This document shows, piece by piece, positions 13,230 to 42,784 of a stretch of 64,000 nt of DNA (within the stretch, counting starts at the first letter, position 1; the number at the start of each line of letters is the position of its first letter). The notes beneath the pieces were generated by a model. The model ran no database searches and had not been told where the DNA came from. It worked only from the letters and a program-made list of their open reading frames with translations. The position numbers and the translations under genes are program-made. Origin of the DNA: Ulva prolifera (Eukaryota > Chlorophyta > Ulvophyceae > Ulvales > Ulvaceae); contig CM041201.1 in the NCBI GenBank assembly GCA_023078555.1, forward strand, positions 2,239,713-2,303,712. Direction: 5' to 3'.

Positions 13230-13276
13230 ACTTGCATGATATTGCGCGCACGCAGCGTAGCACCTCCTTATGGTCA

Positions 13277-17299: not shown

Positions 17300-17379
17300 T
17301 TTGCTTTGCCATACAGGCCCGGTATGTGTAACTTTAAGTATTCAAGTTACACATACCAGGCCATTGTATGGCAAAGCAA
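17300..17379. repeat. Inverted repeat at the copy 1 3' junction
   Basis: The tail of retrotransposon copy 1 (minus strand) faces a satellite monomer's own tail (plus strand). This gives arms of about 35 nt (TTTGCTTTGCCATAC ... GGTATGTGTAACTT and its complement) around a nine-base spacer at 17335-17343. A small bulge occurs where AGGCCC meets AATGGCCT. It follows from element orientation and could fold as a hairpin in RNA or single-stranded DNA. Confidence 0.8.
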
Positions 17380-17537
17380 ATCAATACATCAAACTAACAC
17401 ACACAACAAGCCAGTAAGACAAGCGAGCGGCCGCCAAACGAGCAACCACCAGAACTCGGGGAACCAGAACGCATCCCAACACACAACCCGGACATCAACC
17501 AAAATCAAGATCATCAAACGCGCTAGGAACAGAGCTC

Positions 17538-20500
17538 TCAACCCAGAAAGGCATCCACCGGCACATCAAGGCCTTGGGTGAAATGCTTGCCGCACGACCG
17601 GGCGACGGCCGTCAGCGTGTGCGCGTACATTTCCGCATTGCCCTTCTGCAGCACACACGAAAGCAACTTGTACGCATTCATCACAAACACCGACTTGGAG
17701 ACGCGGCCTGATGCCGCAGCAATCTCACCCAACTCCCGGATGTACTCCTCCGCCCGCGGCGCGAGCTTCCATAGGACTCAACAGCAAACGGAACAAACTC
17801 ATATTGCGGCTTATCGGCAAACTTCTCCCAATCATCCCGCTTGAGCTTCTCCGCGACCTTCGCCGCCGAGGCATCCTCCCTATGCGACCCCTTACGCAAA
17901 GCATCCTTCCCAAGCGGATGCGTCACCGTCACGTCCACCATGACGTGACGCCCACCTGGCAGGATGGCGAGGATGTCAGCCCTGTGCCGCCCCACTTTCC
18001 CAGCTCCGGCATCCCCATGCACGCCGGCGTACGGCGGCTCCATGCTCGTGGACACCCCAGCACAAGTGTGAACACGGCGCATTGCATAAGCAAATTTATC
18101 ATGGCGCGACGAAAGACACTTGTTATTTCGGGTGCACAGCATAGCATGGTCGCCGCGTCCGATGCTCTCGCCGGAGCAATCGCACGGCGGCATCTCCACA
18201 GGGCCGCAGACTCGCTCACCGAGGCGGTGGCGAAGGATGGTGGTAAGGGAGTGGTCACCGATGGTGGTGTCCAGCCGCCGCCGGCCGGGGAGGGCGGACA
18301 AGAAGGCGCTACCGGGGGCGCCGCGGGCACTGCGCACACGAGCAGCACCGAGCCTGCCTGCCTCCGTGCTCAAGTCCATCCCTTCCAAGAACGCCTTGCC
18401 GGCCTTGTCACCCATGGACCTAGACACAGTATGCTGCAAGGAGGGGAGAACAAGACGCACGCCTTTGCTGGAGAGGTCCGCCGGTGAGCCACCGTCGATC
18501 TTCCCGGAGATCTTCGTGACCCACTCCTCGATGTCGGGCAAGATGCCGCGGACGCAGTCCCAGTCGTGCTGCAGGACCGACGCGGCCGGCCCGTCGAGCC
18601 GCTGGAACGCGGCGGGGCCGTCAGCGACGACCCGGTGAGCCACCGCAACGCCGGTGAGCAACGCAGCTTTCGCCTCAACCGGGTGGGTCATGCGCAACCC
18701 AAGGCCGCCGTGGCGAATCGGCAACAACATCTGCTGCACTGCCGAGCTCATCTGCACGAGCACGCCAGACGGATCCTGCGTGACCGGCACCTGCGCAATG
18801 CTCGCCACCGCGGCGACGACAGCGCCTTCGAGGGCGCGTGTCGACTCGGCCAGGAGCTCCCACCTGGTCGTGCGCTGGTGGTGCACCAAGCGGACGGCAA
18901 ATGACTGCCGGAGCAGCAGCAGCTGCACCTGCTTGGTGACCGGCAAGCGCATGAGCAGATCGATCTCCCCGATTGCCTTCGCGGCAGCGGCTTTCAGCCG
19001 CGCGCGGACGAAGGCGTCAGTGCCGACGTGGGTGCCGACCACTGTGATGCCGTCCTCTCTGTGGGGCACGCCGGTGGACTGCTGGACGGCACGACACTCC
19101 TCATGTGCCTCGGCACAAGGCGCAAACAAGCCACTCTTGCCCGGCACGATGGTGAGGCCGACCGAGCGCGCGCTGCCCGGACCGTCCCCGCAGAGGCGGC
19201 CCAGGAGCTTGCGCAACGCAGGCCCGCGGCCCACGGCAGTGAAGTCATCGAGGTACGACATGCAGGGCGCCTCCGGGACTGCTGCCGCAAGCGCCGTCAA
19301 GACCTCCTGGAAGCCCAACGCAAACAGTAGCGGCCCCAGCGGGTCGCCCTGCCGCACCCCACGCTGCGATTCGATCACAGTGCCGCTGGCGGCACCCACC
19401 ACATGGAGTTGGGTGGCAGCACCGTACCCGAATTGGAAGAACGGGAGCAGCTCCGGCAGCGCCTGCAAGACCCCGCGCGCGACGGCGGTGCGGTGGATCT
19501 CGTTGAAAGCATTCCGCATGTCCGCCGTTAGCGCGATGGCGTGGGGGTCCTTCTCCAGCGCCGCCGCGACGCTGTGCGCCACTGCGTCCGTCCCGCCGGC
19601 CGTGCCGACGCCCACCTGCAGGGGCGCAAGGTCCCGCCCCGCGGCTTTGCCGACAGCCTCGATCGCGCACATCGCTGCAAGGCGGTACCAGACCTCGCCG
19701 ATGGCGATGGGCCGGACACCTCCTGTCTGCTTCTGGAGAGCGAGGAGCTTCGAGTCGAGGAGTCCGCACTCGCGGGGCAGCATACCGGACAGCATCAAGT
19801 TCACAAAATCGAGGGCCGCTTGGAACCCCCGGGCAGTACCCCCAGTGACCGCAAGGATCATCTCAAAGGTCCAACCCGAGGGGCCCCCAGCTCGGCCTTT
19901 TTTGTGGTTCTTGATGCGGTCAAGCACCCTCACAAGCAGGGTGCTGTCAATCTGGAGAGCAGGCACGTCGCACTCGAGGGGCGGCGGCGGCGCCGCCGCC
20001 GGGTGCAACGCACGCAACTTCTCCATGACGGCGGGGCACGTCGTGTCGGCCGGCTTCTCGTCGTTCAGGCGACGGGCGGCGATGTGGATGCTCCCGCCTT
20101 TCACTCCTGACTCCACTCGCTCTGCTAGGCGCGCTTCCTCAGTCATCTCCTTCCGCCGATGGGTCACAGATGGCGCGAAGCCCCCCTCCTCGTCCTCCAG
20201 CTCCCCACGCCGATACTTGGCCATGATGGCCAGCATGCGCTTGTCACGCTTGTCGGTGTCGCTGCCACCTCGCGGCTCAGCAAGGACAAGCGATGGGAGG
20301 CGGAGGAGTGCAGCGATGGGGGCTAGCACCTGGTTCAACGCACTTCGGCCTCCTGCCTCTGCCGCAGCCGACGAGATAGCCTCGAGGGCCTGGGCAGAGC
20401 AGAGGCTAAAGTCGCGGGTGAGCTGGTCTGACACTGCCCGCCTGATGAACTTGCGAGTGGTGCCGCCGCCATGTTGTTGGCCTGTGCGTGGACAGGCTTG

Positions 20501-21340
20501 AGCGGCGCGCAGCCCTTTGTGCTTCCTTGGCGCTTGCTTCCGGCCGCCTCCGCGTCCCTTTGCCGCTCTGCCGGCGCCACTGCGGCTCGTGCCGGCGCCT
20601 GGGGCGGCGGCTGCGGGCCGGGCGGGCTGCTCGCGCGTGCCGGCACCCGCGCCAGATGCTGACTGTTCAGCGGTGGCTGCAGGCGGGTCGGCAGGGGCGG
20701 GCTGGGCTGGCAGCGGGGGTGGTGGCGGGGGAAGGTCCGGCTGAGGCTGCTCCACGGGGTGCGCGGCGCCTGCGCTGGCTGTGGCTCCACGGTCGGCGAG
20801 TTCATCATTGGCGGGAGTCGGGCGGTTGGAAGATGGTCGGTGCGCTGGTGGTGCATCTGTAGGCGTCGCTGCTCCGGTGGCTGCTGCAGGGGTTGGCGCT
20901 GGGGCTGGCGTGGCTGATGTGCTTGACGGACCTTCAGCAGCTGGAGCAGCGTTTGCTGCTTCTTCAGTGCAGGGAGGTTCCTCAGAGCAGCTCCGGGAGG
21001 GCTGGCCCGAGAGAGCACCGGGATCCTCTCTCAGCTTCGCCCTCCGCGACCGCGGAGCGCTAGCTGGCACAGAATCAACTCGTAACTTGGTTGCGAGCTG
21101 CTTCTGGAGCCGGCTAGCGGCTGCAGGCGGTTGCTTTGGAGTCTCATCCGCTTTGCTGTCCTCAGCTTCGACCTCTGCGTGGCTGCCTTGCAAGCAGCAC
21201 TCGCCCGCAGATCTTGCTGCTGCTGCTTCCTCTTCTGCTTCTGGATGCAGCTGCGCGCGCTGGAGCTTGATGGGCGAGCGTGCTGGAGCTGCGATGCCTT
21301 CAGGCGTCCCAGAACGCCTTCTCTTCGACGTCGAGGACAT
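17538..21340 (-). pseudogene. Reverse transcriptase/RLE polyprotein, copy 1 (one frameshift)
   Basis: This is the single ORF of copy 1. Residues 1 to about 290 are rich in Ala and Pro, with a basic KRRR near the start and a poly-Pro run. The reverse transcriptase follows, with motif A (D607 in DMRNAFNEIH), motif B (RGVRQGDPLGPLLF from about 660) and the catalytic box YLDD at 696-699. The C-terminal part has a C-x1-C-x9-H-x3-C knuckle from Cys1053 and a PD-(D/E)XK-type nuclease with D1122-x13-D1136, as in R2/NeSL-type elements. No N-terminal APE nuclease was seen. Compared with copy 2, one G is missing at about 17769-17770 (near residue 1189), so the reading frame drifts and stops at 17681. 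The true C-terminus lies in the next frame down to the stop at 17538. The start was chosen because both copies share it. The protein would nick DNA and prime reverse transcription from the nick. Confidence 0.9.
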
Positions 21341-21343
21341 GCG

Positions 21344-21361
21344 CTAACCGAGCGTCGTCAT
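21344..21361 (-). promoter_or_regulatory. Minimal upstream ORF before the copy 1 start codon
   Basis: ATG ACG ACG CTC GGT TAG encodes five residues and stops three bases before the main ATG. It is preserved exactly in copy 2 (38162-38179). This spacing would suit termination-reinitiation control of translation (inference). Confidence 0.55.
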
Positions 21362-21900
21362 AAAATGTAATCCTGGCACTTTGTTTTCTTTTTGTGCTTC
21401 GCGGGCGGGTTCTTTTAGCTCCGCTCCTAGTCGCTTCACAGACAGAGCCACCGGGACTGCAACTTACAGCCACGGCAACAAGGCACCGTCCGGAACGCGA
21501 GGACCTAAACTAAACGCAGCAGTCTATTTAACGAAATAGATAAAGCATATTGGCATTGAATTCACGAGAACGCTCGTGCTCCTAGGCGCTGGGCTGCACG
21601 ACCGCTGTCGTTACAGCGCTCGGAACTTCCTCAGCGCAGCTGAAAACACAGACAAACATACCAAACAACAAAACTAAATATTCAGATGCCAATATCTACT
21701 GCGAATCGTGTTCGCAGGCCTGCGGCGCACAGGAGCAGAGCGCCACAGTAGCGTCACGAATACAATGGACGAAGAGTCAGGAGTGAAAAAGTGTGAGTGA
21801 AAAATTGTAATTGGTATGTGTAACTTTATCCCACTCGTGGCTGTAGGAGATTGTGATGTATGCATTGCATAGTTCAATTTCCAGCCGCCCGTCCTCGGCT

Positions 21901-21967
21901 TGTATTAAGTTACACATATCCGGCCATTGTATGGCAAAGCAAACAGACAACATCAAGCCAACTCCAG
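21901..21967 (-). mobile_element. 67-bp retrotransposon tail, inverted; four duplicated copies
   Basis: Flanked by CGTCCTCGGCT (21890-21900 and 21968-21978). On the minus strand the insert holds GGCTTGATGTTGTCTGTTTG, the TTTGCCATACAATGGCC segment and TATGTGTAACTT plus AATACA. The same insertion recurs at 24217-24283, 28665-28731, 30981-31047 and 33297-33363, with offsets of 2316 and 4448 bp, so it marks the higher-order unit. Confidence 0.88.
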
Positions 21968-22308
21968 CGTCCTCGGCTAGGATCAACCCGTGGAGTTGAG
22001 TGTCCTCGCTAGTCAAGGGCTTTGATTCGGAGGCATTGGCCTTGCAAGCACTTGCATAATATTGTTGCACTTGGCTGTTGTCCAGGTTGTTGGCTGAGGT
22101 GAGCTTCGCGGGTTGCTTGTGTGGCAGCTGATCAGTTGTTTGGCTTGATGTGTTTGTTTGCTCTGCCATACAGGCCCGGTATGTGTAACTTTATCCCACT
22201 CGTGGCTGTAGGAGATTGTGATGTATGCATTGCAGAGTTCAATTTCCAGCCGCCCGTCCTCGGCTAGGATCAATCCGTGGAGTTGAGTGTCCTCGCTAGT
22301 CAAGGGCT

Positions 22309-24624
22309 TTGATTGGGAGTCATCGGCCTTGCAAGCACTTGCATGTCATTGCGCGCACACAGCGTAGCACCTCCTCATGGTCAGAGGTGGACATGGACCT
22401 TCGTGGGTGTAGGAGATTGTTGGCAGCTGGTCAGTTGTTTGGGTTGTTGTGTTTGTTTGCTTTGCCATACAATGGCTTGGTATGTGTAACTTTATCCCAC
22501 TCGTGGCTGTAGGAGATTGCGATGTATGCATTGCAGAGACCAATTTCCAGCCGGCCGTACTCGGCTGGGCTTAATCTGTGGAGTTGAGTGCTTTCGCTAG
22601 TCAAGGGCTTTGATTGGGAGTCATCGGCCTTGCAAGCACTTGCATAATATTGTTGCACTTGGCTGTTGTCCAGGTTGTTGGCTGAGGTGAGCTTCGCTGG
22701 TTGCTTGTGTGGCAGCTGATCAGTTGTTTGGCTTGATGTGTATGTTTGCTTTGCCATACAATGGACCGGTATGTGTAACTTTATCCCACTCGTGGCTGTA
22801 GGAGATTGCGATGAATGCATTGCAGAGACCAATTTCCAGCCGGCCGTACTCGGCTGGGCTTAATCTGTGGAGTTGAGTGCTTTCGCTAGTCAAGGGCTTT
22901 GATTGGGAGTCATTGGCCTTGCAAGCACTTGCATAATATTGTTGCACTTGGCTGTTGTCCAGGTTGTTGGCTGAGGTGAGCTTCGCTGGTTGCTTGTGTG
23001 GCAGCTGATCAGTTGTTTGGCTTGATGTGTATGTTTGCTTTGCCATACAATGGCCCGGTATGTGTAACTTGTACTTGCATGATATTGCGCGCACGCAGCG
23101 TAGCACCTCCTTATGGTCAAGTGTAGCTTTATCAATCCTTATGGTCAGAGGTGGACATGGACCTTCGTGGCTGTAGGAGATTGTGGCAGCTGGCCAGTTG
23201 TTTGGCTTGATGTGTTTGTTTGCTTTGCCATACAGGCCCGGTATGTGTAACTTTATCCCACTCGTGGCTGTAGGAGATTGCGATGTATGCATTGCAGAGA
23301 CCAATTTCCAGCCGGCCGTACTCGGCTGGGCTTAATCTGTGGAGTTGAGTGCTCTCGCTAGTCAAGGGCTTTGATTGGGAGTCATTGGCCTTGCAAGCAC
23401 TTGCATGATATTGCGCGCACGCAGCGTAGCACCTCCTTACGGTCAGAGGTGGACATGGACCTTCGTGGCTGTATGAGATTGTTGGCAGCTGGTCAGTTGT
23501 TTGGGTTGTTGTGTTTGTTTGCTTTGCCATACAATGGCTTGGTATGTGTAACTTTATCCCACTCGTGGCTGTAGGAGATTGCGATGTATGCATTGCAGAG
23601 ACCAATTTCCAGCCGGCCGTACTCGGCTGCGCTTAATCTGTGGAGTTGAGTGCTCTCGCTAGTCAAGGGCTTTGATTGGGAGTCATTGGCCTTGCAAGCA
23701 CTTGCATGATATTGCGCGCACGCAGCGTAGCACCTCCTTACGGTCAGAGGTGGACATGGACCTTCGTGGCTGTATGAGATTGTTGGCAGCTGGTCAGTTG
23801 TTTGGGTTGTTGTGTTTGTTTGCTTTGCCATACAATGGCTTGGTATGTGTAACTTTATCCCACTCGTGGCTGTAGGAGATTGCGATGTATGCATTGCAGA
23901 GACCAATTTCCAGCCGGCCGTACTTGGCTGGGCTTAATCTGTGGAGTTGAGTGCTTTCGCTAGTCAAGGGCTTTGATTGGGAGTCATTGGCCTTGCAAGC
24001 ACTTGCATAATATTGTTGCACTTGGCTGTTGTCCAGGTTGTTGGCTGAGGTGAGCTTCGCTGGTTGCTTGTGTGGCAGCTGATCAGTTGTTTGGCTTGAT
24101 GTGTTTGTTTGCTTTGCCATACAGGCCCGGTATGTGTAACTTTATCCCACTCGTGGCTGTAGGAGATTGTGATGTATGCATTGCATAGTTCAATTTCCAG
24201 CCGCCCGTCCTCGGCTTGTATTAAGTTACACATATCCGGCCATTGTATGGCAAAGCAAACAGACAACATCAAGCCAACTCCAGCGTCCTCGGCTAGGATC
24301 AACCCGTGGAGTTGAGTGTCCTCGCTAGTCAAGGGCTTTGATTCGGAGGCATTGGCCTTGCAAGCACTTGCATAATATTGTTGCACTTGGCTGTTGTCCA
24401 GGTTGTTGGCTGAGGTGAGCTTCGCGGGTTGCTTGTGTGGCAGCTGATCAGTTGTTTGGCTTGATGTGTTTGTTTGCTCTGCCATACAGGCCCGGTATGT
24501 GTAACTTTATCCCACTCGTGGCTGTAGGAGATTGTGATGTATGCATTGCAGAGTTCAATTTCCAGCCGCCCGTCCTCGGCTAGGATCAATCCGTGGAGTT
24601 GAGTGTCCTCGCTAGTCAAGGGCT
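22309..24624 (+). repeat. Higher-order repeat unit, 2316 bp
   Basis: Landmarks at 22309, 22431, 22720, 22890, 23132 and 23371 recur exactly 2316 bp later. The copy starting at 24625 stays parallel until about 25.9 kb and then switches to the 301-bp series shared with 15-17.3 kb. Confidence 0.85.
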
Positions 24625-25987
24625 TTGATTGGGAGTCATCGGCCTTGCAAGCACTTGCATGTCATTGCGCGCACACAGCGTAGCACCTCCTCATGGTCAG
24701 AGGTGGACATGGACCTTCGTGGGTGTAGGAGATTGTTGGCAGCTGGTCAGTTGTTTGGGTTGTTGTGTTTGTTTGCTTTGCCATACAATGGCTTGGTATG
24801 TGTAACTTTATCCCACTCGTGGCTGTAGGAGATTGCGATGTATGCATTGCAGAGACCAATTTCCAGCCGGCCGTACTCGGCTGGGCTTAATCTGTGGAGT
24901 TGAGTGCTTTCGCTAGTCAAGGGCTTTGATTGGGAGTCATCGGCCTTGCAAGCACTTGCATAATATTGTTGCACTTGGCTGTTGTCCAGGTTGTTGGCTG
25001 AGGTGAGCTTCGCTGGTTGCTTGTGTGGCAGCTGATCAGTTGTTTGGCTTGATGTGTATGTTTGCTTTGCCATACAATGGCCCGGTATGTGTAACTTTAT
25101 CCCACTCGTGGCTGTAGGAGATTGCGATGAATGCATTGCAGAGACCAATTTCCAGCCGGCCGTACTCGGCTGGGCTTAATCTGTGGAGTTGAGTGCTTTC
25201 GCTAGTCAAGGGCTTTGATTGGGAGTCATTGGCCTTGCAAGCACTTGCATAATATTGTTGCACTTGGCTGTTGTCCAGGTTGTTGGCTGAGGTGAGCTTC
25301 GCTGGTTGCTTGTGTGGCAGCTGATCAGTTGTTTGGCTTGATGTGTATGTTTGCTTTGCCATACAATGGCCCGGTATGTGTAACTTGTACTTGCATGATA
25401 TTGCGCGCACGCAGCGTAGCACCTCCTTATGGTCAAGTGTAGCTTTATCAATCCTTATGGTCAGAGGTGGACATGGACCTTCGTGGCTGTAGGAGATTGT
25501 GGCAGCTGGCCAGTTGTTTGGCTTGATGTGTTTGTTTGCTTTGCCATACAGGCCCGGTATGTGTAACTTTATCCCACTCGTGGCTGTAGGAGATTGCGAT
25601 GTATGCATTGCAGAGACCAATTTCCAGCCGGCCGTACTCGGCTGGGCTTAATCTGTGGAGTTGAGTGCTCTCGCTAGTCAAGGGCTTTGATTGGGAGTCA
25701 TTGGCCTTGCAAGCACTTGCATGATATTGCGCGCACGCAGCGTAGCACCTCCTTACGGTCAGAGGTGGACATGGACCTTCGTGGCTGTATGAGATTGTTG
25801 GCAGCTGGTCAGTTGTTTGGGTTGTTGTGTTTGTTTGCTTTGCCATACAATGGCTTGGTATGTGTAACTTTATCCCACTCGTGGCTGTAGGAGATTGCGA
25901 TGTATGCATTGCAGAGACCAATTTCCAGCCGGCCGTACTCGGCTGGGCTTAATCTGTGGAGTTGAGTGCTTTCGCTAGTCAAGGGCT

Positions 25988-28592
25988 TTGATTGGGAGTC
26001 ATTGGCCTTGCAAGCACTTGCATGATATTGCGCGCACGCAGCGTAGCACCTCCTTACGGTCAGAGGTGGACATGGACCTTCGTGGCTGTATGAGATTGTT
26101 GGCAGCTGGTCAGTTGTTTGGGTTGTTGTGTTTGTTTGCTTTGCCATACAATGGCTTGGTATGTGTAACTTTATCCCACTCGTGGCTGTAGGAGATTGTG
26201 ATGTATGCATTGCAGAGATCAATTTCCAGCCGGCCGTACTCGGCTGGGCTTAATCCGTGGAATTGAGTGCTCTCGCTAGTCAAGGGCTTTGATTGGGAGT
26301 CATTGGCCTTGCAAGCACTTGCATGATATTGCGCGCACGCAGCGTAGCACCTCCTTACGGTCAGAGGTGGACATGGACCTTCGTGGCTGTATGAGATTGT
26401 TGGCAGCTGGTCAGTTGTTTGGGTTGTTGTGTTTGTTTGCTTTGCCATACAATGGCTTGGTATGTGTAACTTTATCCCACTCGTGGCTGTAGGAGATTGT
26501 GATGTATGCATTGCAGAGATCAATTTCCAGCCGCCCGTACTCGGCTGGGCTTAATCCGTGGAATTGAGTGCTCTCGCTAGTCAAGGGCTTTGATTGGGAG
26601 TCATTGGCCTTGCAAGCACTTGCATGATATTGCGCGCACGCAGCGTAGCACCTCCTTACGGTCAGAGGTGGACATGGACCTTCGTGGCTGTATGAGATTG
26701 TTGGCAGCTGGTCAGTTGTTTGGGTTGTTGTGTTTGTTTGCTTTGCCATACAATGGCTTGGTATGTGTAACTTTATCCCACTCGTGGCTGTAGGAGATTG
26801 CGATGTATGCATTGCAGAGACCAATTTCCAGCCGGCCGTACTCGGCTGGGCTTAATCCGTGGAATTGAGTGCTCTCGCTAGTCAAGGGCTTTGATTGGGA
26901 GTCATTGGCCTTGCAAGCACTTGCATGATATTGCGCGCACGCAGCGTAGCACCTCCTTACGGTCAGAGGTGGACATGGACCTTCGTGGCTGTATGAGATT
27001 GTTGGCAGCTGGTCAGTTGTTTGGGTTGTTGTGTTTGTTTGCTTTGCCATACAATGGCTTGGTATGTGTAACTTTATCCCACTCGTGGCTGTAGGAGATT
27101 GTGATGTATGCATTGCAGAGATCAATTTCCAGCCGCCCGTACTCGGCTGGGCTTAATCCGTGGAATTGAGTGCTCTCGCTAGTCAAGGGCTTTGATTGGG
27201 AGTCATTGGCCTTGCAAGCACTTGCATGATATTGCGCGCACGCAGCGTAGCACCTCCTTACGGTCAGAGGTGGACATGGACCTTCGTGGCTGTATGAGAT
27301 TGTTGGCAGCTGGTCAGTTGTTTGGGTTGTTGTGTTTGTTTGCTTTGCCATACAATGGCTTGGTATGTGTAACTTTATCCCACTCGTGGCTGTAGGAGAT
27401 TGCGATGTATGCATTGCAGAGACCAATTTCCAGCCGGCCGTACTCGGCTGGGCTTAATCCGTGGAATTGAGTGCTCTCGCTAGTCAAGGGCTTTGATTGG
27501 GAGTCATTGGCCTTGCAAGCACTTGCATGATATTGCGCGCACGCAGCGTAGCACCTCCTTACGGTCAGAGGTGGACATGGACCTTCGTGGCTGTATGAGA
27601 TTGTTGGCAGCTGGTCAGTTGTTTGGGTTGTTGTGTTTGTTTGCTTTGCCATACAATGGCTTGGTATGTGTAACTTTATCCCACTCGTGGCTGTAGGAGA
27701 TTGTGATGTATGCATTGCAGAGATCAATTTCCAGCCGCCCGTACTCGGCTGGGCTTAATCCGTGGAATTGAGTGCTCTCGCTAGTCAAGGGCTTTGATTG
27801 GGAGTCATTGGCCTTGCAAGCACTTGCATGATATTGCGCGCACGCAGCGTAGCACCTCCTTATGGTCAAGTGTAACTTTATCAATCCTTATGGTCAGAGG
27901 TGGACATGGACCTTCGTGGCTGTAGGAGATTGTGGCAGCTGGTCAGTTGTTTGGCTTGATGTGTTTGTTTGCTTTGCCATACAGGCCCGGTATGTGTAAC
28001 TTTATCCCACTCGTGGCTGTAGGAGATTGTGATGTATGCATTGCAGAGTTCAATTTCCAGCCGCCCGTACTCGGCTGGGCTTAATCCGTGGAATTGAGTG
28101 CTCTCGCTAGTCAAGGGCTTTGATTGGGAGTCATTGGCCTTGCAAGCACTTGCATGATATTGCGCGCACGCAGCGTAGCACCTCCTTACGGTCAGAGGTG
28201 GACATGGACCTTCGTGGCTGTAGGAGATTGTTGGCAGCTGGTCAGTTGTTTGGGTTGTTGTGTTTGTTTGCTTTGCCATACAATGGCTTGGTATGTGTAA
28301 CTTTATCCCACTCGTGGCTGTAGGAGATTGCGATGTATGCATTGCAGAGACCAATTTCCAGCCGGCCGTACTTGGCTGGGCTTAATCTGTGGAGTTGAGT
28401 GCTTTCGCTAGTCAAGGGCTTTGATTGGGAGTCATTGGCCTCGCAAGCACTTGCATAATATTGTTGCACTTGGCTGTTGTCCAGGTTGTTGGCTGAGGTG
28501 AGCTTCGCTGGTTGCTTGTGTGGCAGCTGATCAGTTGTTTGGCTTGATGTGTTTGTTTGCTTTGCCATACAGGCCCGGTATGTGTAACTTTA
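25988..28592 (+). repeat. Segmental duplicate of 15033-17336 spanning the empty copy 1 site
   Basis: Monomer variants match those at 15033-16.3 kb at an offset of 10955 bp and those after 16.6 kb at an offset of 11256 bp, a difference of one 301-bp monomer. The private GGCCTCGCAAGC variant near 17183 recurs near 28438. At 28577-28592 the copy 1 target GGTATGTGTAACTTTA is intact and runs on into the same right flank (GCATAGTTCAATTTCC) found after copy 1. Confidence 0.85.
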
Positions 28593-32000: not shown

Positions 32001-33704
32001 GCAAGCACTTGCATAATATTGTTGCACTTGGCTGTTGTCCAGGTTGTTGGCTGAGGTGAGCTTCGCTGGTTGCTTGTGTGGCAGCTGATCAGTTGTTTGG
32101 CTTGATGTGTATGTTTGCTTTGCCATACAATGGCCCGGTATGTGTAACTTGTACTTGCATGATATTGCGCGCACGCAGCGTAGCACCTCCTTATGGTCAA
32201 GTGTAGCTTTATCAATCCTTATGGTCAGAGGTGGACATGGACCTTCGTGGCTGTAGGAGATTGTGGCAGCTGGCCAGTTGTTTGGCTTGATGTGTTTGTT
32301 TGCTTTGCCATACAGGCCCGGTATGTGTAACTTTATCCCACTCGTGGCTGTAGGAGATTGCGATGTATGCATTGCAGAGACCAATTTCCAGCCGGCCGTA
32401 CTCGGCTGGGCTTAATCTGTGGAGTTGAGTGCTCTCGCTAGTCAAGGGCTTTGATTGGGAGTCATTGGCCTTGCAAGCACTTGCATGATATTGCGCGCAC
32501 GCAGCGTAGCACCTCCTTACGGTCAGAGGTGGACATGGACCTTCGTGGCTGTATGAGATTGTTGGCAGCTGGTCAGTTGTTTGGGTTGTTGTGTTTGTTT
32601 GCTTTGCCATACAATGGCTTGGTATGTGTAACTTTATCCCACTCGTGGCTGTAGGAGATTGCGATGTATGCATTGCAGAGACCAATTTCCAGCCGGCCGT
32701 ACTCGGCTGCGCTTAATCTGTGGAGTTGAGTGCTCTCGCTAGTCAAGGGCTTTGATTGGGAGTCATTGGCCTTGCAAGCACTTGCATGATATTGCGCGCA
32801 CGCAGCGTAGCACCTCCTTACGGTCAGAGGTGGACATGGACCTTCGTGGCTGTATGAGATTGTTGGCAGCTGGTCAGTTGTTTGGGTTGTTGTGTTTGTT
32901 TGCTTTGCCATACAATGGCTTGGTATGTGTAACTTTATCCCACTCGTGGCTGTAGGAGATTGCGATGTATGCATTGCAGAGACCAATTTCCAGCCGGCCG
33001 TACTTGGCTGGGCTTAATCTGTGGAGTTGAGTGCTTTCGCTAGTCAAGGGCTTTGATTGGGAGTCATTGGCCTTGCAAGCACTTGCATAATATTGTTGCA
33101 CTTGGCTGTTGTCCAGGTTGTTGGCTGAGGTGAGCTTCGCTGGTTGCTTGTGTGGCAGCTGATCAGTTGTTTGGCTTGATGTGTTTGTTTGCTTTGCCAT
33201 ACAGGCCCGGTATGTGTAACTTTATCCCACTCGTGGCTGTAGGAGATTGTGATGTATGCATTGCATAGTTCAATTTCCAGCCGCCCGTCCTCGGCTTGTA
33301 TTAAGTTACACATATCCGGCCATTGTATGGCAAAGCAAACAGACAACATCAAGCCAACTCCAGCGTCCTCGGCTAGGATCAACCCGTGGAGTTGAGTGTC
33401 CTCGCTAGTCAAGGGCTTTGATTCGGAGGCATTGGCCTTGCAAGCACTTGCATAATATTGTTGCACTTGGCTGTTGTCCAGGTTGTTGGCTGAGGTGAGC
33501 TTCGCGGGTTGCTTGTGTGGCAGCTGATCAGTTGTTTGGCTTGATGTGTTTGTTTGCTCTGCCATACAGGCCCGGTATGTGTAACTTTATCCCACTCGTG
33601 GCTGTAGGAGATTGTGATGTATGCATTGCAGAGTTCAATTTCCAGCCGCCCGTCCTCGGCTAGGATCAATCCGTGGAGTTGAGTGTCCTCGCTAGTCAAG
33701 GGCT
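29073..33704 (+). repeat. Two tandem 2316-bp higher-order units
   Basis: Starts at 29073, 31389 and 33705 are spaced exactly 2316 bp and carry the same sequence of variants, including the GCTGCGCTTAATC monomer and the 67-bp inverted tail. Near-perfect copies imply recent unequal exchange or conversion. Confidence 0.88.
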
Positions 33705-36700
33705 TTGATTGGGAGTCATCGGCCTTGCAAGCACTTGCATGTCATTGCGCGCACACAGCGTAGCACCTCCTCATGGTCAGAGGTGGACATGGACCTTCGT
33801 GGGTGTAGGAGATTGTTGGCAGCTGGTCAGTTGTTTGGGTTGTTGTGTTTGTTTGCTTTGCCATACAATGGCTTGGTATGTGTAACTTTATCCCACTCGT
33901 GGCTGTAGGAGATTGCGATGTATGCATTGCAGAGACCAATTTCCAGCCGGCCGTACTCGGCTGGGCTTAATCTGTGGAGTTGAGTGCTTTCGCTAGTCAA
34001 GGGCTTTGATTGGGAGTCATCGGCCTTGCAAGCACTTGCATAATATTGTTGCACTTGGCTGTTGTCCAGGTTGTTGGCTGAGGTGAGCTTCGCTGGTTGC
34101 TTGTGTGGCAGCTGATCAGTTGTTTGGCTTGATGTGTATGTTTGCTTTGCCATACAATGGCCCGGTATGTGTAACTTTATCCCACTCGTGGCTGTAGGAG
34201 ATTGCGATGAATGCATTGCAGAGACCAATTTCCAGCCGGCCGTACTCGGCTGGGCTTAATCTGTGGAGTTGAGTGCTTTCGCTAGTCAAGGGCTTTGATT
34301 GGGAGTCATTGGCCTTGCAAGCACTTGCATAATATTGTTGCACTTGGCTGTTGTCCAGGTTGTTGGCTGAGGTGAGCTTCGCTGGTTGCTTGTGTGGCAG
34401 CTGATCAGTTGTTTGGCTTGATGTGTATGTTTGCTTTGCCATACAATGGCCCGGTATGTGTAACTTGTACTTGCATGATATTGCGCGCACGCAGCGTAGC
34501 ACCTCCTTATGGTCAAGTGTAGCTTTATCAATCCTTATGGTCAGAGGTGGACATGGACCTTCGTGGCTGTAGGAGATTGTGGCAGCTGGCCAGTTGTTTG
34601 GCTTGATGTGTTTGTTTGCTTTGCCATACAGGCCCGGTATGTGTAACTTTATCCCACTCGTGGCTGTAGGAGATTGCGATGTATGCATTGCAGAGACCAA
34701 TTTCCAGCCGGCCGTACTCGGCTGGGCTTAATCTGTGGAGTTGAGTGCTCTCGCTAGTCAAGGGCTTTGATTGGGAGTCATTGGCCTTGCAAGCACTTGC
34801 ATGATATTGCGCGCACGCAGCGTAGCACCTCCTTACGGTCAGAGGTGGACATGGACCTTCGTGGCTGTATGAGATTGTTGGCAGCTGGTCAGTTGTTTGG
34901 GTTGTTGTGTTTGTTTGCTTTGCCATACAATGGCTTGGTATGTGTAACTTTATCCCACTCGTGGCTGTAGGAGATTGCGATGTATGCATTGCAGAGACCA
35001 ATTTCCAGCCGGCCGTACTCGGCTGGGCTTAATCTGTGGAGTTGAGTGCTCTCGCTAGTCAAGGGCTTTGATTGGGAGTCATTGGCCTTGCAAGCACTTG
35101 CATGATATTGCGCGCACGCAGCGTAGCACCTCCTTACGGTCAGAGGTGGACATGGACCTTCGTGGCTGTATGAGATTGTTGGCAGCTGGTCAGTTGTTTG
35201 GGTTGTTGTGTTTGTTTGCTTTGCCATACAATGGCTTGGTATGTGTAACTTTATCCCACTCGTGGCTGTAGGAGATTGCGATGTATGCATTGCAGAGACC
35301 AATTTCCAGCCGGCCGTACTCGGCTGGGCTTAATCTGTGGAGTTGAGTGCTCTCGCTAGTCAAGGGCTTTGATTGGGAGTCATTGGCCTTGCAAGCACTT
35401 GCATGATATTGCGCGCACGCAGCGTAGCACCTCCTTACGGTCAGAGGTGGACATGGACCTTCGTGGCTGTATGAGATTGTTGGCAGCTGGTCAGTTGTTT
35501 GGGTTGTTGTGTTTGTTTGCTTTGCCATACAATGGCTTGGTATGTGTAACTTTATCCCACTCGTGGCTGTAGGAGATTGCGATGTATGCATTGCAGAGAC
35601 CAATTTCCAGCCGGCCGTACTCGGCTGGGCTTAATCTGTGGAGTTGAGTGCTTTCGCTAGTCAAGGGCTTTGATTGGGAGTCATTGGCCTTGCAAGCACT
35701 TGCATGATATTGCGCGCACGCAGCGTAGCACCTCCTTACGGTCAGAGGTGGACATGGACCTTCGTGGCTGTATGAGATTGTTGGCAGCTGGTCAGTTGTT
35801 TGTGTTGTTGTGTTTGTTTGCTTTGCCATACAATGGCTTGGTATGTGTAACTTTATCCCACTCGTGGCTGTAGGAGATTGTGATGTATGCATTGCAGAGA
35901 TCAATTTCCAGCCGCCCGTACTCGGCTGGGCTTAATCCGTGGAATTGAGTGCTCTCGCTAGTCAAGGGCTTTGATTGGGAGTCATTGGCCTTGCAAGCAC
36001 TTGCATGATATTGCGCGCACGCAGCGTAGCACCTCCTTACGGTCAGAGGTGGACATGGACCTTCGTGGCTGTATGAGATTGTTGGCAGCTGGTCAGTTGT
36101 TTGGGTTGTTGTGTTTGTTTGCTTTGCCATACAATGGCTTGGTATGTGTAACTTTATCCCACTCGTGGCTGTAGGAGATTGCGATGTATGCATTGCAGAG
36201 ACCAATTTCCAGCCGGCCGTACTCGGCTGGGCTTAATCTGTGGAGTTGAGTGCTTTCGCTAGTCAAGGGCTTTGATTGGGAGTCATTGGCCTTGCAAGCA
36301 CTTGCATGATATTGCGCGCACGCAGCGTAGCACCTCCTTACGGTCAGAGGTGGACATGGACCTTCGTGGCTGTATGAGATTGTTGGCAGCTGGTCAGTTG
36401 TTTGGGTTGTTGTGTTTGTTTGCTTTGCCATACAATGGCTTGGTATGTGTAACTTTATCCCACTCGTGGCTGTAGGAGATTGTGATGTATGCATTGCAGA
36501 GATCAATTTCCAGCCGCCCGTACTCGGCTGGGCTTAATCCGTGGAATTGAGTGCTCTCGCTAGTCAAGGGCTTTGATTGGGAGTCATTGGCCTTGCAAGC
36601 ACTTGCATGATATTGCGCGCACGCAGCGTAGCACCTCCTTATGGTCAAGTGTAACTTTATCAATCCTTATGGTCAGAGGTGGACATGGACCTTCGTGGCT

Positions 36701-38161
36701 GTAGGAGATTGTGGCAGCTGGTCAGTTGTTTGGCTTGATGTGTTTGTTTGCTTTGCCATACAGGCCCGGTATGTGTAACTTTATCCCACTCGTGGCTGTA
36801 GGAGATTGCGATGTATGCATTGCAGAGACCAATTTCCAGCCGGCCGTACTCGGCTGGGCTTAATCTGTGGAGTTGAGTGCTTTCGCTAGTCAAGGGCTTT
36901 GATTGGGAGTCATTGGCCTTGCAAGCACTTGCATGATATTGCGCGCACGCAGCGTAGCACCTCCTTACGGTCAGAGGTGGACATGGACCTTCGTGGCTGT
37001 ATGAGATTGTTGGCAGCTGGTCAGTTGTTTGGGTTGTTGTGTTTGTTTGCTTTGCCATACAATGGCTTGGTATGTGTAACTTTATCCCACTCGTGGCTGT
37101 AGGAGATTGCGATGTATGCATTGCAGAGACCAATTTCCAGCCGGCCGTACTCGGCTGGGCTTAATCTGTGGAGTTGAGTGCTCTCGCTAGTCAAGGGCTT
37201 TGATTGGGAGTCATTGGCCTTGCAAGCACTTGCATGATATTGCGCGCACGCAGCGCAGCACCTCCTTACGGTCAGAGGTGGACATGGACCTTCGTGGCTG
37301 TATGAGATTGTTGGCAGCTGGTCAGTTGTTTGGGTTGTTGTGTTTGTTTGCTTTGCCATACAATGGCTTGGTATGTGTAACTTTATCCCACTCGTGGCTG
37401 TAGGAGATTGCGATGTATGCATTGCAGAGACCAATTTCCAGCCGGCCGTACTCGGCTGGGCTTAATCTGTGGAGTTGAGTGCTCTCGCTAGTCAAGGGCT
37501 TTGATTGGGAGTCATTGGCCTTGCAAGCACTTGCATGATATTGCGCGCACGCAGCGTAGCACCTCCTTACGGTCAGAGGTGGACATGGACCTTCGTGGCT
37601 GTATGAGATTGTTGGCAGCTGGTCAGTTGTTTGGGTTGTTGTGTTTGTTTGCTTTGCCATACAATGGCTTGGTATGTGTAACTTTATCCCACTCGTGGCT
37701 GTACTGTATCATGTATCTCCACAAGATTCCAGAGATTCACTCCTGACTCTTCGTCCATTGTATTCGTGACGCTACTGTGGCGCTCTGCTCCTGTGCGCCG
37801 CAGGCCTGCGAACACGATTCGCAGTAGATATTGGCATCTGAATATTTAGTTTTGTTGTTTGGTCTGTTTGTCTGTGTTTTCAGCTGCGCTGAGGAAGTTC
37901 CGAGCGCTGTAACGACAGCGGTCGTGCAGCCCAGCGCCTAGGAGCACAAGCGTTCTCGTGAATTCAATGCCAATATGCTTTATCTATTTCGTTAAATAGA
38001 CTGCTGCGTTTAGTTTAGGTCCTCGCGTTCCGGACGGTGCCTTGTTGCCGTGGCTGTAAGTTGCAGTCCCGGTGGCTCTGTCTGTGAAGCGACTAGGAGC
38101 GGAGCTAAAAGAACCCGCCCGCGAAGCACAAAAAGAAAACAAAGTGCCAGGATTATATTTT

Positions 38162-38179
38162 ATGACGACGCTCGGTTAG
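38162..38179 (+). promoter_or_regulatory. Minimal upstream ORF before the copy 2 start codon
   Basis: A five-codon ORF plus stop, the same codons as in copy 1, ending three bases upstream of the main ATG at 38183. Two independently inserted copies preserve it. Confidence 0.55.
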
Positions 38180-38182
38180 AGC

Positions 38183-41100
38183 ATGTCCTCGACGTCGAAG
38201 AGAAGGCGTTCTGGGACGCCTGAAGGCGTCGCAGCTCCAGCACGCTCGCCCATCAAGCTCCAGCGCGCGCAGCTGCATCCAGAAGCAGAAGCGGAAGCAG
38301 CAGCAGCAAGATGTGCGGGCGAGTGCTGCTTGCAAGGCAGCCACGCAGAGGTCGTAGCTGAGGACAGCAAAGCAGATGAGACTCCAAAGCAACCGCCTGC
38401 AGCCGCTAGCCGGCTCCAGAAGCAGCTCGCAACCAAGTTACGAGTTGATTCTGTGCCAGCTAGCGCTCCGCGGTCGCGGAGGGCGAAGCTGAGAGAGGAT
38501 CCCGGTGCTCTCTCGGGCCAGCCCTCCCGGAGCTGCTCTGAGGAACCTCCCTGCACTGAAGAAGCAGCCAACGCTGCTCCAGCTGCTGAAGGTCCGTCAA
38601 GCACATCAGCCACGCCAGCCCCAGCGCCCACCCCTGCAGCAGCCACCGGAGCAGCGACGCCTACAGACGCACCACCAGCGCATCGACCATCCTCCGACCG
38701 CCCGATTCCCACCAATGATGAACCCACCGACCGTGGAGCCACAGCCAGCGCAGGCGCCGCGCACCCCGTGGTGCAGCCTCAGCCGGACCTTCCCCCGCCG
38801 CCACCCCCGCCGCCAGCCCAGCCCGCCCCTGCCGACCCGCCTGCAGCCACTGCTGAACAGTCAGCACCTGGCGCGGGTGCCGGCACGCGCGAGCAGCCCG
38901 CCCGGCCCGCAGCCGCCGCCCCAGGCGCCGGTACGAGCCGCGGTGGCGCCGGCAGAGCGGCAAAGGGGCGTGGAGGCGGCCGGAAGCAAGCGCCGAGGAA
39001 GCACAAAGGGCTGCGCGCCGCCCAAGCCTGTCCACGCACAGGCCAACAACACGGCGGCGGCACCACCCGCAAGTTCATCAGGCGGGCAGTGTCAGAACAG
39101 CTCACCCGCGACTTTAGCCTCTGCTCTGCACAAGCCCTCGAGGCCATCTCTTCGGCAGCGGCAGAGGCAGGTGGCCGAAGTGCGCTGAACCAGGTGCTAG
39201 CCCCCATCGCCGCACTCCTCCGTCTCCCTTCGCTTGTCCTTGCTGAGCCACGTGGCGGCAGCGACACCGACAAGCGTGACAAGCGCATGCTGGCCATTAT
39301 GGTCAAGTACCGGCGTGGGGAGCTGGAGGACGAGGAGGGAGGCTTTGTGCCTTCGGTGACCCATCGGCGAAAGGAGATGACCGAGGAGGCGCGTCTAGCA
39401 GAGCGCGTGGAGTCAGGAGTGAAAGGCGGGAGCATCCACATCGCCGCCCGCCGTCTGAAGAATGAGAAGCCAGCCGATACGACGTCCGCTGCCGTCATGG
39501 AGAAGCTGCGTGCACTGCACCCGGCGGCGGCGCCACCACCGCCTCTCGAGTGCGACGTGCCTGCTCTTCAGATTGACAGCATCCTGCTCCGCAGGGTGCT
39601 TGACCGCATCAAGAACCACAAAAAAGGCCGCGCCGGGGGACCCTCGGGTTGGACCTTCGAGATGATCCTTGCGGTCACCGGGGGTACCGCCCGGGGGTTC
39701 CAAGCGGCCCTCGATTTTGTGAACTTGATGTTGTCCGGCATGCTGCCCCGCGAGTGCGGCCTCCTCGACTCGAAGCTCCTCGCTCTCCAGAAGGATGCAG
39801 GGGGTGTCCGGCCCATCGCCATCGGCGAGGTCTGGTACCGCCTTGCAGCGATGTGCGCGATCGAGGCTGTCGGCAAAGCCGCGGGGCGGGACCTCGCGCC
39901 CCTGCAAGTGGGCGTCGGCACGGCTGGCGGGACGGAAGCGGTAGCGCACAGCGTCGCGGCGGCACTGGAGAAGGACCCCCACGCCATCGCGCTGACGGTG
40001 GACATGCGGAATGCTTTCAACGAGATCCACCGCACCGCCGTCGCGCGCGGGGTTTTGAAAGCGCTGCCGGAGCTGCTCCCGTTCTTCCATTACGGGTACG
40101 GTGCTGCCACCCAACTCCATGTGGTGGGTGCCGCTAGCGGCACTGTGATTGAGTCGCAGCGTGGGGTGCGGCAGGGCGACCCGCTGGGGCCGCTGCTGTT
40201 TGCATTGGGCTTCCAGGAAGTCTTGACGGCACTGGCGGCAGCAGTCCCGGAGGCGCCCAGCATGTCGTACCTCGATGACTTCTCTGCCGTGGGCCGCGGG
40301 CCTGCGTTGCGCAAGGTCCTAGGCCGCCTCTGCGGGGATGGTCCGGGCAGCGCGCGCTCGGTCGGCCTCACCATCGTGCCGGGTAAGAGTGGCGTGTTTG
40401 CGCCCTGTGCCGAGGCGCACGAAGAGTGTCGTGCCATCCAGCAGTCCACCGGCGTGCCCCACAGAGAGGACGGCATCACAGTGGTCGGCACCCACGTCGG
40501 CACCGACGCCTTCGTCCGCGCGCGGCTGCAAGCCGCTGCCGCGAAGGCAATCGGGGAGATCGACCTGCTCATGCGCTTGCCGGTCACCAAGCAGGTGCAG
40601 CTGCTGCTGCTCCGGCAGTCATTTGCTGTCCGCTTGGTGCACCACCAGCGCACGACCAGGTGGGAGCTCCTGGCCGAGTCGACACGCGCCCTCGAAGGCG
40701 CTGTCGTCGCCGCGGTGGCGAGCATTGCGCAGGTGCCGGTCACGCAGGATCCGTCTGGCGTGCTCGTTCAGATGAGCTCGGCAGTGCAGCAGATGTTGTT
40801 GCCGATTCGCCACGGCGGCCTTGGGCTGCGTATGACCCACCCAGTTGAGGCGAAAGCAGCGTTGCTCACCGGCGTCGCGGTGGCTCAACGGGTCGTTGCT
40901 GACGGCCCTGCCGTGTTCCAGCGGCTCGACGGGCCTGCCGCGCCGGCGATGCAGTGCGACTGGGACTGCATCCGCGGCGTCTTGCCCGACGTCGAGGAGT
41001 GGGTCACGAAGGTCTCCGACAAGATCGACGGTGGCTCACCGGCGGACTTCTCCAGCAAAGGAGTGCGTCATGTTCTCCCCTTTTTGCAGCATGCAGTGGC

Positions 41101-42087
41101 TAGGTCCATGGGTGACAAGGCCGGCAAGGCGTTCCTGGATGGCATGGACTTGAGCACAGAGGCAGGCAGGCTCGGTGCTGCTCGAGTGCGCAGTGCCCGC
41201 GGGGCCCCTGGCAGCGCCTTCTTGTCCGCCCTCCCTGGCCGGCGGCGGCTGTACACCACCATTGCTGGTGTGGCAGCCGGTCGCTGGTTTGGCTTGATGT
41301 TGTTTGTTTGCTTTGCCATACAATGGCCAGATATGTGTAACTTATTACTACGTACACCACCATTGGTAACCACTCCCTCACCACCATCCTTCGCCACCGC
41401 CTCGGTGAGCGAGTCAGCGGCCCCGTGGAGATGCCGCCATGCGATTGCTCTGGCGAGAGCGTCGGCCGCGGAGACCATGCTATGCTGTGTACCCGAAACA
41501 ACAAGGATATTTCGTCGCGCCATGATGATTTTGCTCTTGCAATGCGCCATCTTCATTCTTGTGCTTCGGTGACCACGAGCATAGAGCCGCCGTATGCCGG
41601 CGTGCATGGGGAGCACGGCGCAGGGGCCGTGGGGGAGCACCGAGCGGACATCCTCGCGATCTTGCCGGGGGGGCGTCATGTCATGGTGGACGTGACGGTG
41701 ACGCACCCGCTCGGGAAGAAAGCTTTGAGTAGGGGGTCGCACCGGGAGGATGCCTCAGCGGCGAAGGTCGCGGAGCAGCTCAAGCGGAATGATTGGGAGA
41801 AGTTTGCTGATAAGCCGCAGTATGAGTTTGTTCCGTTTGCCGTTGAGTCCTATGGGAAGTTCGGGCCGCGGGCTGAGGAGTACATCAGGGAGTTGGGTGA
41901 GATTGCTGCGGCATCAGGCCGGGTCTCCAAGTCGGTGTTTTTGATGAATGCGTACAGGTTGCTTTCGTGTGTGTTGCAGAAGGGCAATGCGACAATGTAT
42001 GCGCGCACACTGACGGCCGTCGCCCGGTCGTGCGGCAAGCATTTCACCCATGGCTTTGATGTGCCGGTGGATGACTTTGTGGGTTGA
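38183..42087 (+). pseudogene. Reverse transcriptase/RLE polyprotein, copy 2 (broken by a tail insertion)
   Basis: Orthologous in layout to copy 1 and closely similar: Ala/Pro-rich N-terminus, motif A D607, motif B from residue 660, YLDD at 696-699, then a thumb/linker region. The frame is open to residue 1028, where an 87-bp insertion plus its 14-bp duplication (101 bp, not a multiple of three) shifts it; the shifted frame stops at 41572. The remainder, with the C-x-C-x9-H-x3-C knuckle, the RLE core and the final 60 residues or so that are out of frame in copy 1, is open from about 41425 to the stop at 42087. The copy therefore retains an intact RT but not the full nuclease in frame. Confidence 0.9.
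41265..41351 (+). mobile_element. 87-bp retrotransposon tail inside the copy 2 ORF
   Basis: Flanked by the 14-bp duplication GTACACCACCATTG (41251-41264 and 41352-41365). The insert is a type B tail: TGTGGCAGCCGGTCGCTGG, GGCTTGATGTTGTTTG, TTTGCCATACAATGGCC, then ATGTGTAACTT plus ATTACTAC. It is a clean case of the tail inserting outside the satellite. Confidence 0.93.
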
Positions 42088-42784
42088 GTGCTGTGGCCGT
42101 GGGGCGTTTGATGCATTTGTGGTTGGTTGTTGTCTGGGGTTTTTTTTGCTGTGTTGCTTTCTTGTGATTGCTGGTGTGGCAGCCGGTCGCTGGAATGGCT
42201 TGATGTTGTTTGTTTGCTTTGCCATACAATGGCCAGATATGTGTAACTTATGTCGTGGCTGTAGGAGATTGCGATGTATGCATTGCAGAGACCAATTTCC
42301 AGCCGGCCGTACTCGGCTGGGCTTAATCTGTGGAGTTGAGTGCTCTCGCTAGTCAAGGGCTTTGATTGGGAGTCATTGGCCTTGCAAGCACTTGCATGAT
42401 ATTGCGCGCACGCAGCGTAGCACCTCCTTACGGTCAGAGGTGGACATGGACCTTCGTGGCTGTATGAGATTGTTGGCAGCTGGTCAGTTGTTTGGGTTGT
42501 TGTGTTTGTTTGCTTTGCCATACAATGGCTTGGTATGTGTAACTTTATCCCACTCGTGGCTGTAGGAGATTGCGATGTATGCATTGCAGAGACCAATTTC
42601 CAGCCGGCCGTACTCGGCTGGGCTTAATCTGTGGAGTTGAGTGCTCTCGCTAGTCAAGGGCTTTGATTGGGAGTCATTGGCCTTGCAAGCACTTGCATGA
42701 TATTGCGCGCACGCAGCGTAGCACCTCCTTACGGTCAGAGGTGGACATGGACCTTCGTGGCTGTATGAGATTGTTGGCAGCTGG

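Follow-up and report, generated by a model that had tools for sequence, protein, structure and literature searches.

Tails of a LINE family captured by unrelated satellites in Ulva prolifera

Introduction

When a tandem satellite and a LINE resident within it share a 3′ end, which of the two has supplied the other? The question is raised by a satellite on contig C6 of the green alga Ulva prolifera, of which we analysed a 64 000-nt stretch (the window, whose numbering is used below). The original prediction made of satellite and element a self-seeding pair: satellite transcripts ending in the tail would be templates for the element's enzyme, in the manner of SINEs and LINEs, and the element would gain a repeated habitat. 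Here we describe the resident elements, the tail inserts in this and other satellites, and the distribution of the family through the 88.9-Mb assembly.

Results

The satellite array extends ∼76 kb at a single place on C6, with the window inside; its features are collected in Table 1. In the window (TRF) the base monomer is ∼200 bp and the common tail-bearing monomer 301 bp, while the left edge of the array has 200-bp monomers without a tail. A base 23-mer has all 152 of its genome occurrences within C6:2.21–2.30 Mb. The window has 172 occurrences of the 3′-end word TATGTGTAACTT (161 plus, 11 minus) versus 0.00 expected from shuffles, and most monomers there contain the LINE 3′ end. The assembly gave no match to the RuBisCO large subunit and 38 to light-harvesting proteins, the best of them near chlorophyll a/b-binding proteins, as would suit an alga of green type.

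Table 1. Mapped features of the window
Feature	Position	Strand	Details
C6 satellite array with element insertions	1..58759	+	TRF, base 23-mer
N gap, right end of array in assembly	58760-58859		
201-bp monomer run, A sites empty	50991..51576	+	
Element 1, near-full-length single-ORF LINE	17335-21812	-	ORF 17681-21340
Element 1 TSD, copy 1, within a satellite tail	17321-17334	+	GGTATGTGTAACTT
Element 1 TSD, copy 2	21813-21826	+	GGTATGTGTAACTT
Element 2, near-full-length LINE	37704-42252	+	ORF interrupted by internal tail insert
Element 2 TSD, copy 1	37693-37703	+	TCGTGGCTGTA
Element 2 TSD, copy 2	42253-42263	+	TCGTGGCTGTA
Tail-only insert within element 2, 88 nt	41265-41352	+	13-bp TSD TACACCACCATTG at 41252-41264, 41353-41365
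Insertion A, one typical monomer	13620..13738	+	TSD 13620-13638, 73-nt tail 13639-13711, 8 extra nt, TSD 13720-13738
Insertion B, one monomer	22926..23087	+	129-nt tail 22942-23070 between CACTTGCATAATATTG and TACTTGCATGATATTG
Insertion C	23108..23147	+	16 nt with element terminus, between two copies of TCCTTATGGTCA
Insertion D	21890..21978	-	Tail 21901-21967 flanked on both sides by CGTCCTCGGCT; found five times in window
Insertion E	5236..5382	-	Tail 5253-5365 flanked on both sides by ATCAATCCTTATGGTCA
Higher-order repeats bearing insertion D	21907..33303	+	Spacings 2316, 4448, 2316, 2316 bp

Two near-full-length elements were predicted in the array and both are found, each with a clear TSD; the predicted spacing of their target sites, about 10 bp, is also correct, since 8 bp separates the two target words in the monomer (TATCCCAC). 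The target word of element 2 starts at the same point as that of the ancestral insertion A. Identity between the elements is 93.7% across 4409 aligned bases, and neither is a clean copy. Element 1, whose 3′ junction includes 9 extra nt, has a single ORF of 1219 codons with no ORF1 upstream, other genome copies having frames of ∼1268 codons. Near the C-terminus its frame diverges from those of element 2 and most genome copies; the latter match only up to residue 1193–1198 of 1219, one copy on C7 continuing to 1219. Element 2 carries the internal tail insert.

RVT_1 is found above the Pfam cut-off in both proteins (E 1.9e-10 for element 1, 5.1e-9 for element 2), and the Pfam scan returned no other domain. 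The three best matches among solved structures are R2 proteins (E 6.2e-5 to 0.013), and no L1 protein appears among such matches up to E 10. Judged by Pfam and these matches, the reverse transcriptase is of the non-LTR, R2-like group. C-terminal motifs recognised by eye are C-X1-C-X9-H-X3-C, RH and RAD...DVTV. The zinc-knuckle and lysine motifs deviate from the RLE spacings CX2-3CX7-8HX4C and KX2KY given in the published account (PMC5678591), and the C-terminal part found no sequence relative among solved structures; restriction-like endonuclease (RLE) class is a candidate assignment for the element. A single-sequence model of this part is poor (pLDDT 41.7); its helix-strand-strand-strand-helix order would suit a PD-(D/E)XK restriction-like endonuclease. 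Folded as RNA, three 3′ ends showed no excess over shuffles (z 0.21 to 0.80). A 5-bp hairpin, GCCAU-ACA-AUGGC, is kept in two of the three centroids.

The tail of the 301-bp monomer is a ∼73-nt insert with a 19-bp TSD in a 200-bp monomer (insertion A), whose empty form survives: the window has 123 words for its 5′ junction, 138 for its 3′ junction and 10 for the empty site, and the two TSD copies of the tabulated monomer differ by one mismatch. For insertion B, with an imperfect TSD (14/16), the respective counts are 34, 14 and 111. Insertion C, whose tabulated copy has one base of the element terminus changed, is filled in 28 cases and empty in 97, and insertion E is present in three copies (5260, 6619, 7977). 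Tail-only inserts entered the local monomers several times, flanked by TSDs, and empty monomers persist. The 3′ end common to satellite and element is accounted for more simply than by seeding: the tail of the 301-bp monomer arrived by retrotransposition into the satellite and was then amplified. Tail-bearing units multiplied after insertion, the three 2316-bp units compared being 99.96–100% identical, and insertion D has been copied recently through higher-order duplication. Reversion could, in principle, have produced the monomers that have no tail. The reverse order, in which the element took its 3′ end from a pre-existing satellite, has in its favour that the window holds more satellite than element; we find it barely credible, as the monomer tail is TSD-flanked, tail-less monomers exist, and the C6 base is limited to C6, yet tails occur on C1–C10 and protein-level matches on eight contigs.

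The prediction that monomers carry the element's 3′ terminus stands in so far as a LINE 3′ end is present, but this end differs from that of elements 1 and 2. Identity of the type-B satellite tail (in a string one base different from the window copies) reaches 93% with L048 and 91% with L054, both dispersed inserts, against 78% with element 2 and 68% with element 1. The gap narrows for the type-A tail, which is 90% identical to L048, 84% to element 2 and 82% to element 1. For both tails the comparison is unfair to any dispersed insert of lesser length. These identities point to a sister subfamily, and not to the two resident copies, as the source of the satellite tails.

Satellites on C2 and C4, with bases unrelated to that on C6, likewise bear inserted tails of the same LINE family. 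The C2 satellite has two sites where TSD-flanked tails are accompanied by matching empty monomers (13–16 filled and 34–39 empty words), and the C4 satellite has one such site (1 filled, 5 empty). Site 2 on C2 may represent one event, since its two 5′ forms share one 3′ junction; L031, a higher-order tail on C4, has no clear TSD. Base similarity among the C2, C4 and C6 satellites is at shuffle level (scores reached by 61, 46 and 179 of 200 shuffles). The C3 satellite may be related to those of C6 and C4, because few or no shuffles reach the pair scores (4/200 for C6–C3, 0/200 for C4–C3). On C10, one site has two differing tails and three target copies.

Outside the satellites we read 32 dispersed copies (10 among 100 listed of 184 tail matches, 2 from a 49-tail subset and 20 from a 69-tail subset; 4 to 5 are within ∼160 kb of a cluster), and all 32 are tail-only. 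Exact TSDs of 9 bp or more flank 27 of them versus 2.7% of 1600 mismatched pairs serving as control; at least 11 bp is matched exactly in 21/32 versus 0/1600. Lengths run from 37 to 223 nt with a median of 97 (n=29, leaving out L048 and L049, with no TSD, and L055, with a doubtful one; L052 is kept, its length unreliable from a second tail inside, and 5 of the 29 depend on TSDs of just 8–9 bp). Target sequences vary widely between the inserts examined. The TSDs of both elements and of the 27 dispersed inserts fit target-primed insertion, with a presumed priming step.

So many short inserts might instead be a SINE-like family, copied from a short source gene of its own, with the 5′ end fixed, and also entering satellites. 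Insert 5′ ends, however, spread continuously from 14 to >200 nt and show no common start, and the longer L014 and L054 reach, by eye, into the end of the element's ORF; we consider such a family highly improbable, and rejected a fixed head on insert lengths.

Long and short copies are both concentrated. Among protein-level matches with identity of 70% or more (38 scored of 12197 candidates; a single copy can account for several matches as its fragments), 40 of 44 lie inside nine intervals on eight contigs, which together make up 815 kb or 0.92% of the genome (boundaries were drawn after the hits had been seen, and the statistics are descriptive); four lie outside. The predicted repeated habitat is borne out by this concentration. 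Copies are clustered rather than evenly spread; the clusters occupy eight contigs and the C6 satellite base C6 alone. Two clusters are on C2, and the tail and protein searches revealed none on C8 or C9. For tails, the intervals hold 42/49 of one subset (38/45 once C6 duplicates are collapsed) and 49/69 of the other (24/44 without C6). The clusters, which show many distinct TSDs plus recent duplications, are probably centromeric, as we infer.

Long copies could also have become concentrated through purging elsewhere or segmental amplification and not through a site preference of the enzyme. All 32 dispersed copies are short, as expected if gene-rich arms lose long inserts, and some cluster tail counts are recent duplicates; yet short tails, presumably little selected, are concentrated too, even in the collapsed and C6-free counts, and the clusters contain many distinct TSDs. 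We judge this alternative somewhat doubtful, the least so of those weighed here.

It remains to ask whether the satellite seeds the element. The satellite does retain the element terminus, and one insert outside the array, at C3:2852655, has a 19-bp TSD and is identical to a satellite tail at 94/95 positions. Satellite-specific words leave almost no support for satellite transcripts as templates: all 81 occurrences of a diagnostic 27-mer of the satellite tail are in the array, as are those of the base 23-mer, and satellite base 14-mers are absent from 33/33 loci (the 32 dispersed inserts and C3:2852655). A tail word of the satellite lineage has 158 of 159 hits in the array, the remaining one being at C3:2852655. 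The C3 copy has no 3′ terminus and is nearly as similar to dispersed inserts from its own subfamily (L048, 92/95; L041, 87/89), a satellite tail being slightly closer than any of five such inserts compared. The search for satellite-derived, TSD-flanked insertions elsewhere thus yielded none with satellite base and a single tail, which is an ambiguous candidate, the sole one. With three satellite- or tail-lineage-specific words and 32 dispersed inserts considered, we rejected self-seeding as the main account and regard it as very unlikely.

Discussion

We think it very probable that an early-stopping R2-like LINE clusters in repeat-rich spots, and that its tails are captured and then multiplied in satellites, the satellite being mainly a passive recorder and not a template. 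The single-ORF element accumulates in one repeat-rich cluster (two on C2) on most large contigs, perhaps drawn to the cluster chromatin. To judge from insert lengths and TSDs, reverse transcription would usually halt very early, so that most events insert just a 3′-terminal piece, a few tens to ∼200 nt long. Tail-bearing units may then be amplified by unequal exchange or a similar process. Reuse of a TSD-regenerated nick site could begin new tandem units, C10 providing the one two-insert example; TCGTGGCTG would be the nick whose reuse belongs to the tail-only mechanism. A larger role, in which the LINE, with tails tens of nucleotides long as its ordinary product, both generates chromosome-specific satellites and is their common marker, seems unlikely to us: with the nick site restored by every inserted tail, serial insertion would build tandem units, and unrelated satellites at each chromosome's cluster would converge on having just the tail in common, maybe kept for recruiting the element's machinery or cluster chromatin.

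Zepp and ZeppL belong to the L1 clade, have an APE endonuclease and live almost exclusively in their clusters. These clusters in green algae are the closest known system: the accounts available describe, for Zepp in Coccomyxa subellipsoidea and ZeppL in Chlamydomonas, roughly one cluster on each chromosome with nested self-insertions, mostly 3′ ends from 5′ truncation (PMC3446292, PMC8226300). As far as those accounts go, the U. prolifera LINE is alike in its nested self-insertions and mostly 3′ ends. Its clusters come close to one per large contig, with nine on eight contigs, two of them on C2 and none found on C8 or C9, and short tails are also dispersed. It differs in that its RT matches R2, with no L1 protein among solved structures, and that its tails are captured by unrelated tandem satellites and amplified therein.

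Other systems share parts of the pattern. G2/Jockey-3, in accounts of Drosophila centromeres, inserts into regions of differing sequence, suggesting targeting of chromatin and not of sequence (PMC11620609); the U. prolifera LINE also enters chromosome regions of differing sequence, but its tail-only inserts join several satellites, which the available text on G2/Jockey-3 does not describe, and its clusters are putatively centromeric. The poplar LINE Celine is described as centromere-enriched and nested, with TSDs of 10–30 bp, two ORFs and mainly LTR elements as targets (PMC11288735). Ours is likewise nested, TSD-bearing and enriched in centromere-like clusters, but has a single ORF and satellite capture, which the available text on Celine does not describe. 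The RLE LINEs R2, NeSL, R4, CRE, HERO and Utopia, as their accounts present them (PMC4640811, PMC5678591), have in common with the U. prolifera element a single ORF, an R2-like RT and a tandem-repeat habitat; its insert targets, unlike theirs, differ widely in sequence and its RLE motifs are atypical. A review names, in its available part, multiple insertion at one TSD-regenerated site as a route to TE-born satellites (PMC12628747). The two-insert tandem on C10 resembles this, but the base monomer here is without element sequence, which makes up just an internal part of 16–129 nt in three unrelated satellites. LINE–SINE pairs sharing a 3′ end differ in having a non-autonomous partner whose own 5′ head is fixed. 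Our search of open-licence papers brought up none recognisably describing the capture of LINE tails by several unrelated satellites.

The satellites of U. prolifera provide a TSD-marked record of foreign sequence entering a satellite monomer and then being homogenised, in three unrelated satellites of one genome, and a case of a LINE that has an R2-like enzyme and yet usually inserts very short pieces of itself. A 3′ end common to LINE and satellite need not imply that the satellite parasitises the LINE, and centromere-like regions of different chromosomes would gain common sequence by insertion, not by interchromosomal exchange.

Tail insertions in the C6 satellite

Two near-full-length copies of the LINE (elements 1 and 2) lie inside the satellite array on contig C6, as had been predicted from the window, and both are flanked by TSDs. 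The common monomer of the array, 301 bp long, holds the word TCGTGGCTGTA(G/T)GAGATTG twice, on both sides of a 73-nt tail (the short 3′ end of the LINE family), and tail-less monomers of 200–201 bp hold it once (10 sites in the window); such monomers with a single target word also occur at the array's left edge (L023). Because the word is double around the tail and single in tail-less monomers, the two monomer lengths have the form of target-primed insertion with a 19-bp duplication. This is site A of the monomer; sites B–E repeat its pattern, and the counts of empty-site words cover sites A to D. Insertion D, present five times, was copied after its insertion; the three 2316-bp units compared are 99.96–100% identical. 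Element 2 contains a tail-only insert of its own (88 nt, TSD 13 bp), and its target word starts at the same point as that of insertion A.

The C6 satellite is specific to this single place, since all its base 23-mers and tails fall there: a word count across the genome (88.9 Mb in 44 contigs) finds 152 copies of the base 23-mer, of which 141 lie in the window (C6:2239713–2303712) and the other 11 within 30 kb to its left. Going by its light-harvesting proteins, the host is probably a green-type alga.

Features of the C6 array and of element copies on other contigs (window positions unless a contig is named)
Feature	Position	Remarks
Satellite array with element insertions	left 58.8 kb	right end at a 100-N gap, 58760–58859
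Range of satellite tails	C6:2222240–2298396	interrupted in places
Element 1	17335–21812	minus strand
Element 2	37704–42252	plus strand
Site B		129-nt tail, imperfect TSD
Site C		16 nt inserted
Sites D, E		tails in opposite direction
ORF past the assembly gap	59132–59686	minus strand; resemblance to glycosyltransferase group 1 is weak and under the cut-off
180-bp satellite	C2, 3.138–3.153 Mb	tails at two sites; many empty monomers
110/165-bp satellite	C4	one tail, 17-bp TSD
Insert L029	C3:2852655	
Double tail L037	C10:1549000–1549170	
Part of C1 cluster (L025)	C1:940000–949999	apparently nested copia-like elements (copia judged by eye) full of LINE tails, not satellite
Distant element relative	C7:1337253–1340414	outside clusters; 38% identity over 131–1193
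Nine clusters	C1, C2 (two), C3, C4, C5, C6, C7, C10	element-1 protein matches

Source of the shared 3′ end

According to the original prediction, satellite and resident element share a 3′ end. The satellite does carry an element tail, but of a different subfamily from the residents': type B, one of its tail types, is 93% and 91% identical to the dispersed inserts L048 and L054, as against 78% for element 2 and 68% for element 1. Judged by these identities, the satellite tails group with the L048/L054 subfamily and, since type B is nearer to it, the resident copies are not the source of the shared end.

Dispersed copies and the seeding model

All 32 copies read outside the clusters are short, 37–223 nt with a median of 97 (n = 29, length fixed by TSD), against ∼4.5 kb for a full copy; the shortest inserts within clusters are ∼14 nt. 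Of the 32, 27 are flanked by an exact TSD 9 bp or longer (versus 2.7% of 1600 mismatched pairs) and 21 by one of 11 bp or longer (versus 0/1600), usually with a few extra bases between TAACTT and the TSD. In one tail subset (n = 69), two dispersed tails are on C8 and one on C9.

If satellite transcripts served as templates for the element's enzyme, as had been proposed, satellite-origin inserts were to be expected elsewhere, and this expectation is almost without support. Genome-wide, all 81 matches to a satellite-diagnostic 27-mer of the tail lie inside the array, and base 14-mers occur in 0 of 33 loci outside it. A satellite-lineage 21-mer has 159 matches, 158 of them inside the array; the remaining one, L029, has a 19-bp TSD and is 94/95 identical to a satellite tail, versus 92/95 to L048 and 87/89 to L041. 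Initiation there may have been internal, because the terminal TATGTGTAACTT of the element is missing. The insert may derive from the satellite or from a source subfamily common to the satellite tails, and this single case cannot carry the seeding model.

Satellites on other contigs

The C2, C4 and C6 satellite bases show no relatedness by local alignment against shuffles. The TSD at site 1 of the C2 satellite is ATTGTACTCAGCT, and a higher-order repeat on C4 holds five copies of a minus-strand tail with no clear TSD. Elements are inserted in a 121-bp satellite on C3, with no amplified tail in the sequence examined; its local alignment (L027) with the 110-bp C4 satellite (L030) beats all 200 shuffles, and the two may be distantly related. 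The C10 locus, with two slightly different tails in succession at one site and three target-word copies, is apparently a nascent tandem unit begun by repeated insertion. Of the C5, C7 and C10 clusters, the sequence reading covered a minor part.

Element class and genomic clustering

Two features favour assignment to the predicted restriction-like-endonuclease class: the solved proteins nearest to the reverse transcriptase are those of R2, and there is a single ORF in the element. The putative endonuclease has motifs partly atypical against those in an excerpt of PMC5678591, no match among solved sequences and a poor predicted structure. The element seems to work in a similar way to Zepp and ZeppL, but membership is not supported by its R2-like reverse transcriptase.

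Among the matches listed for the element-1 protein in the genome there are 45, some being pieces of one copy and some with uninterrupted frames; 44 have at least 70% identity, of which 40 fall in nine clusters, small intervals with limits set post hoc, and four outside. With the same limits, clusters hold 42/49 tails in one subset and 49/69 in a second (24/44 with C6 removed). The proposal that the satellite shelters the element is thereby supported. Clusters of Zepp (PMC3446292, in excerpt) and ZeppL (PMC8226300, likewise) in green algae have been termed probable centromeres, and by analogy we infer that the clusters in this genome are probably centromeric too.
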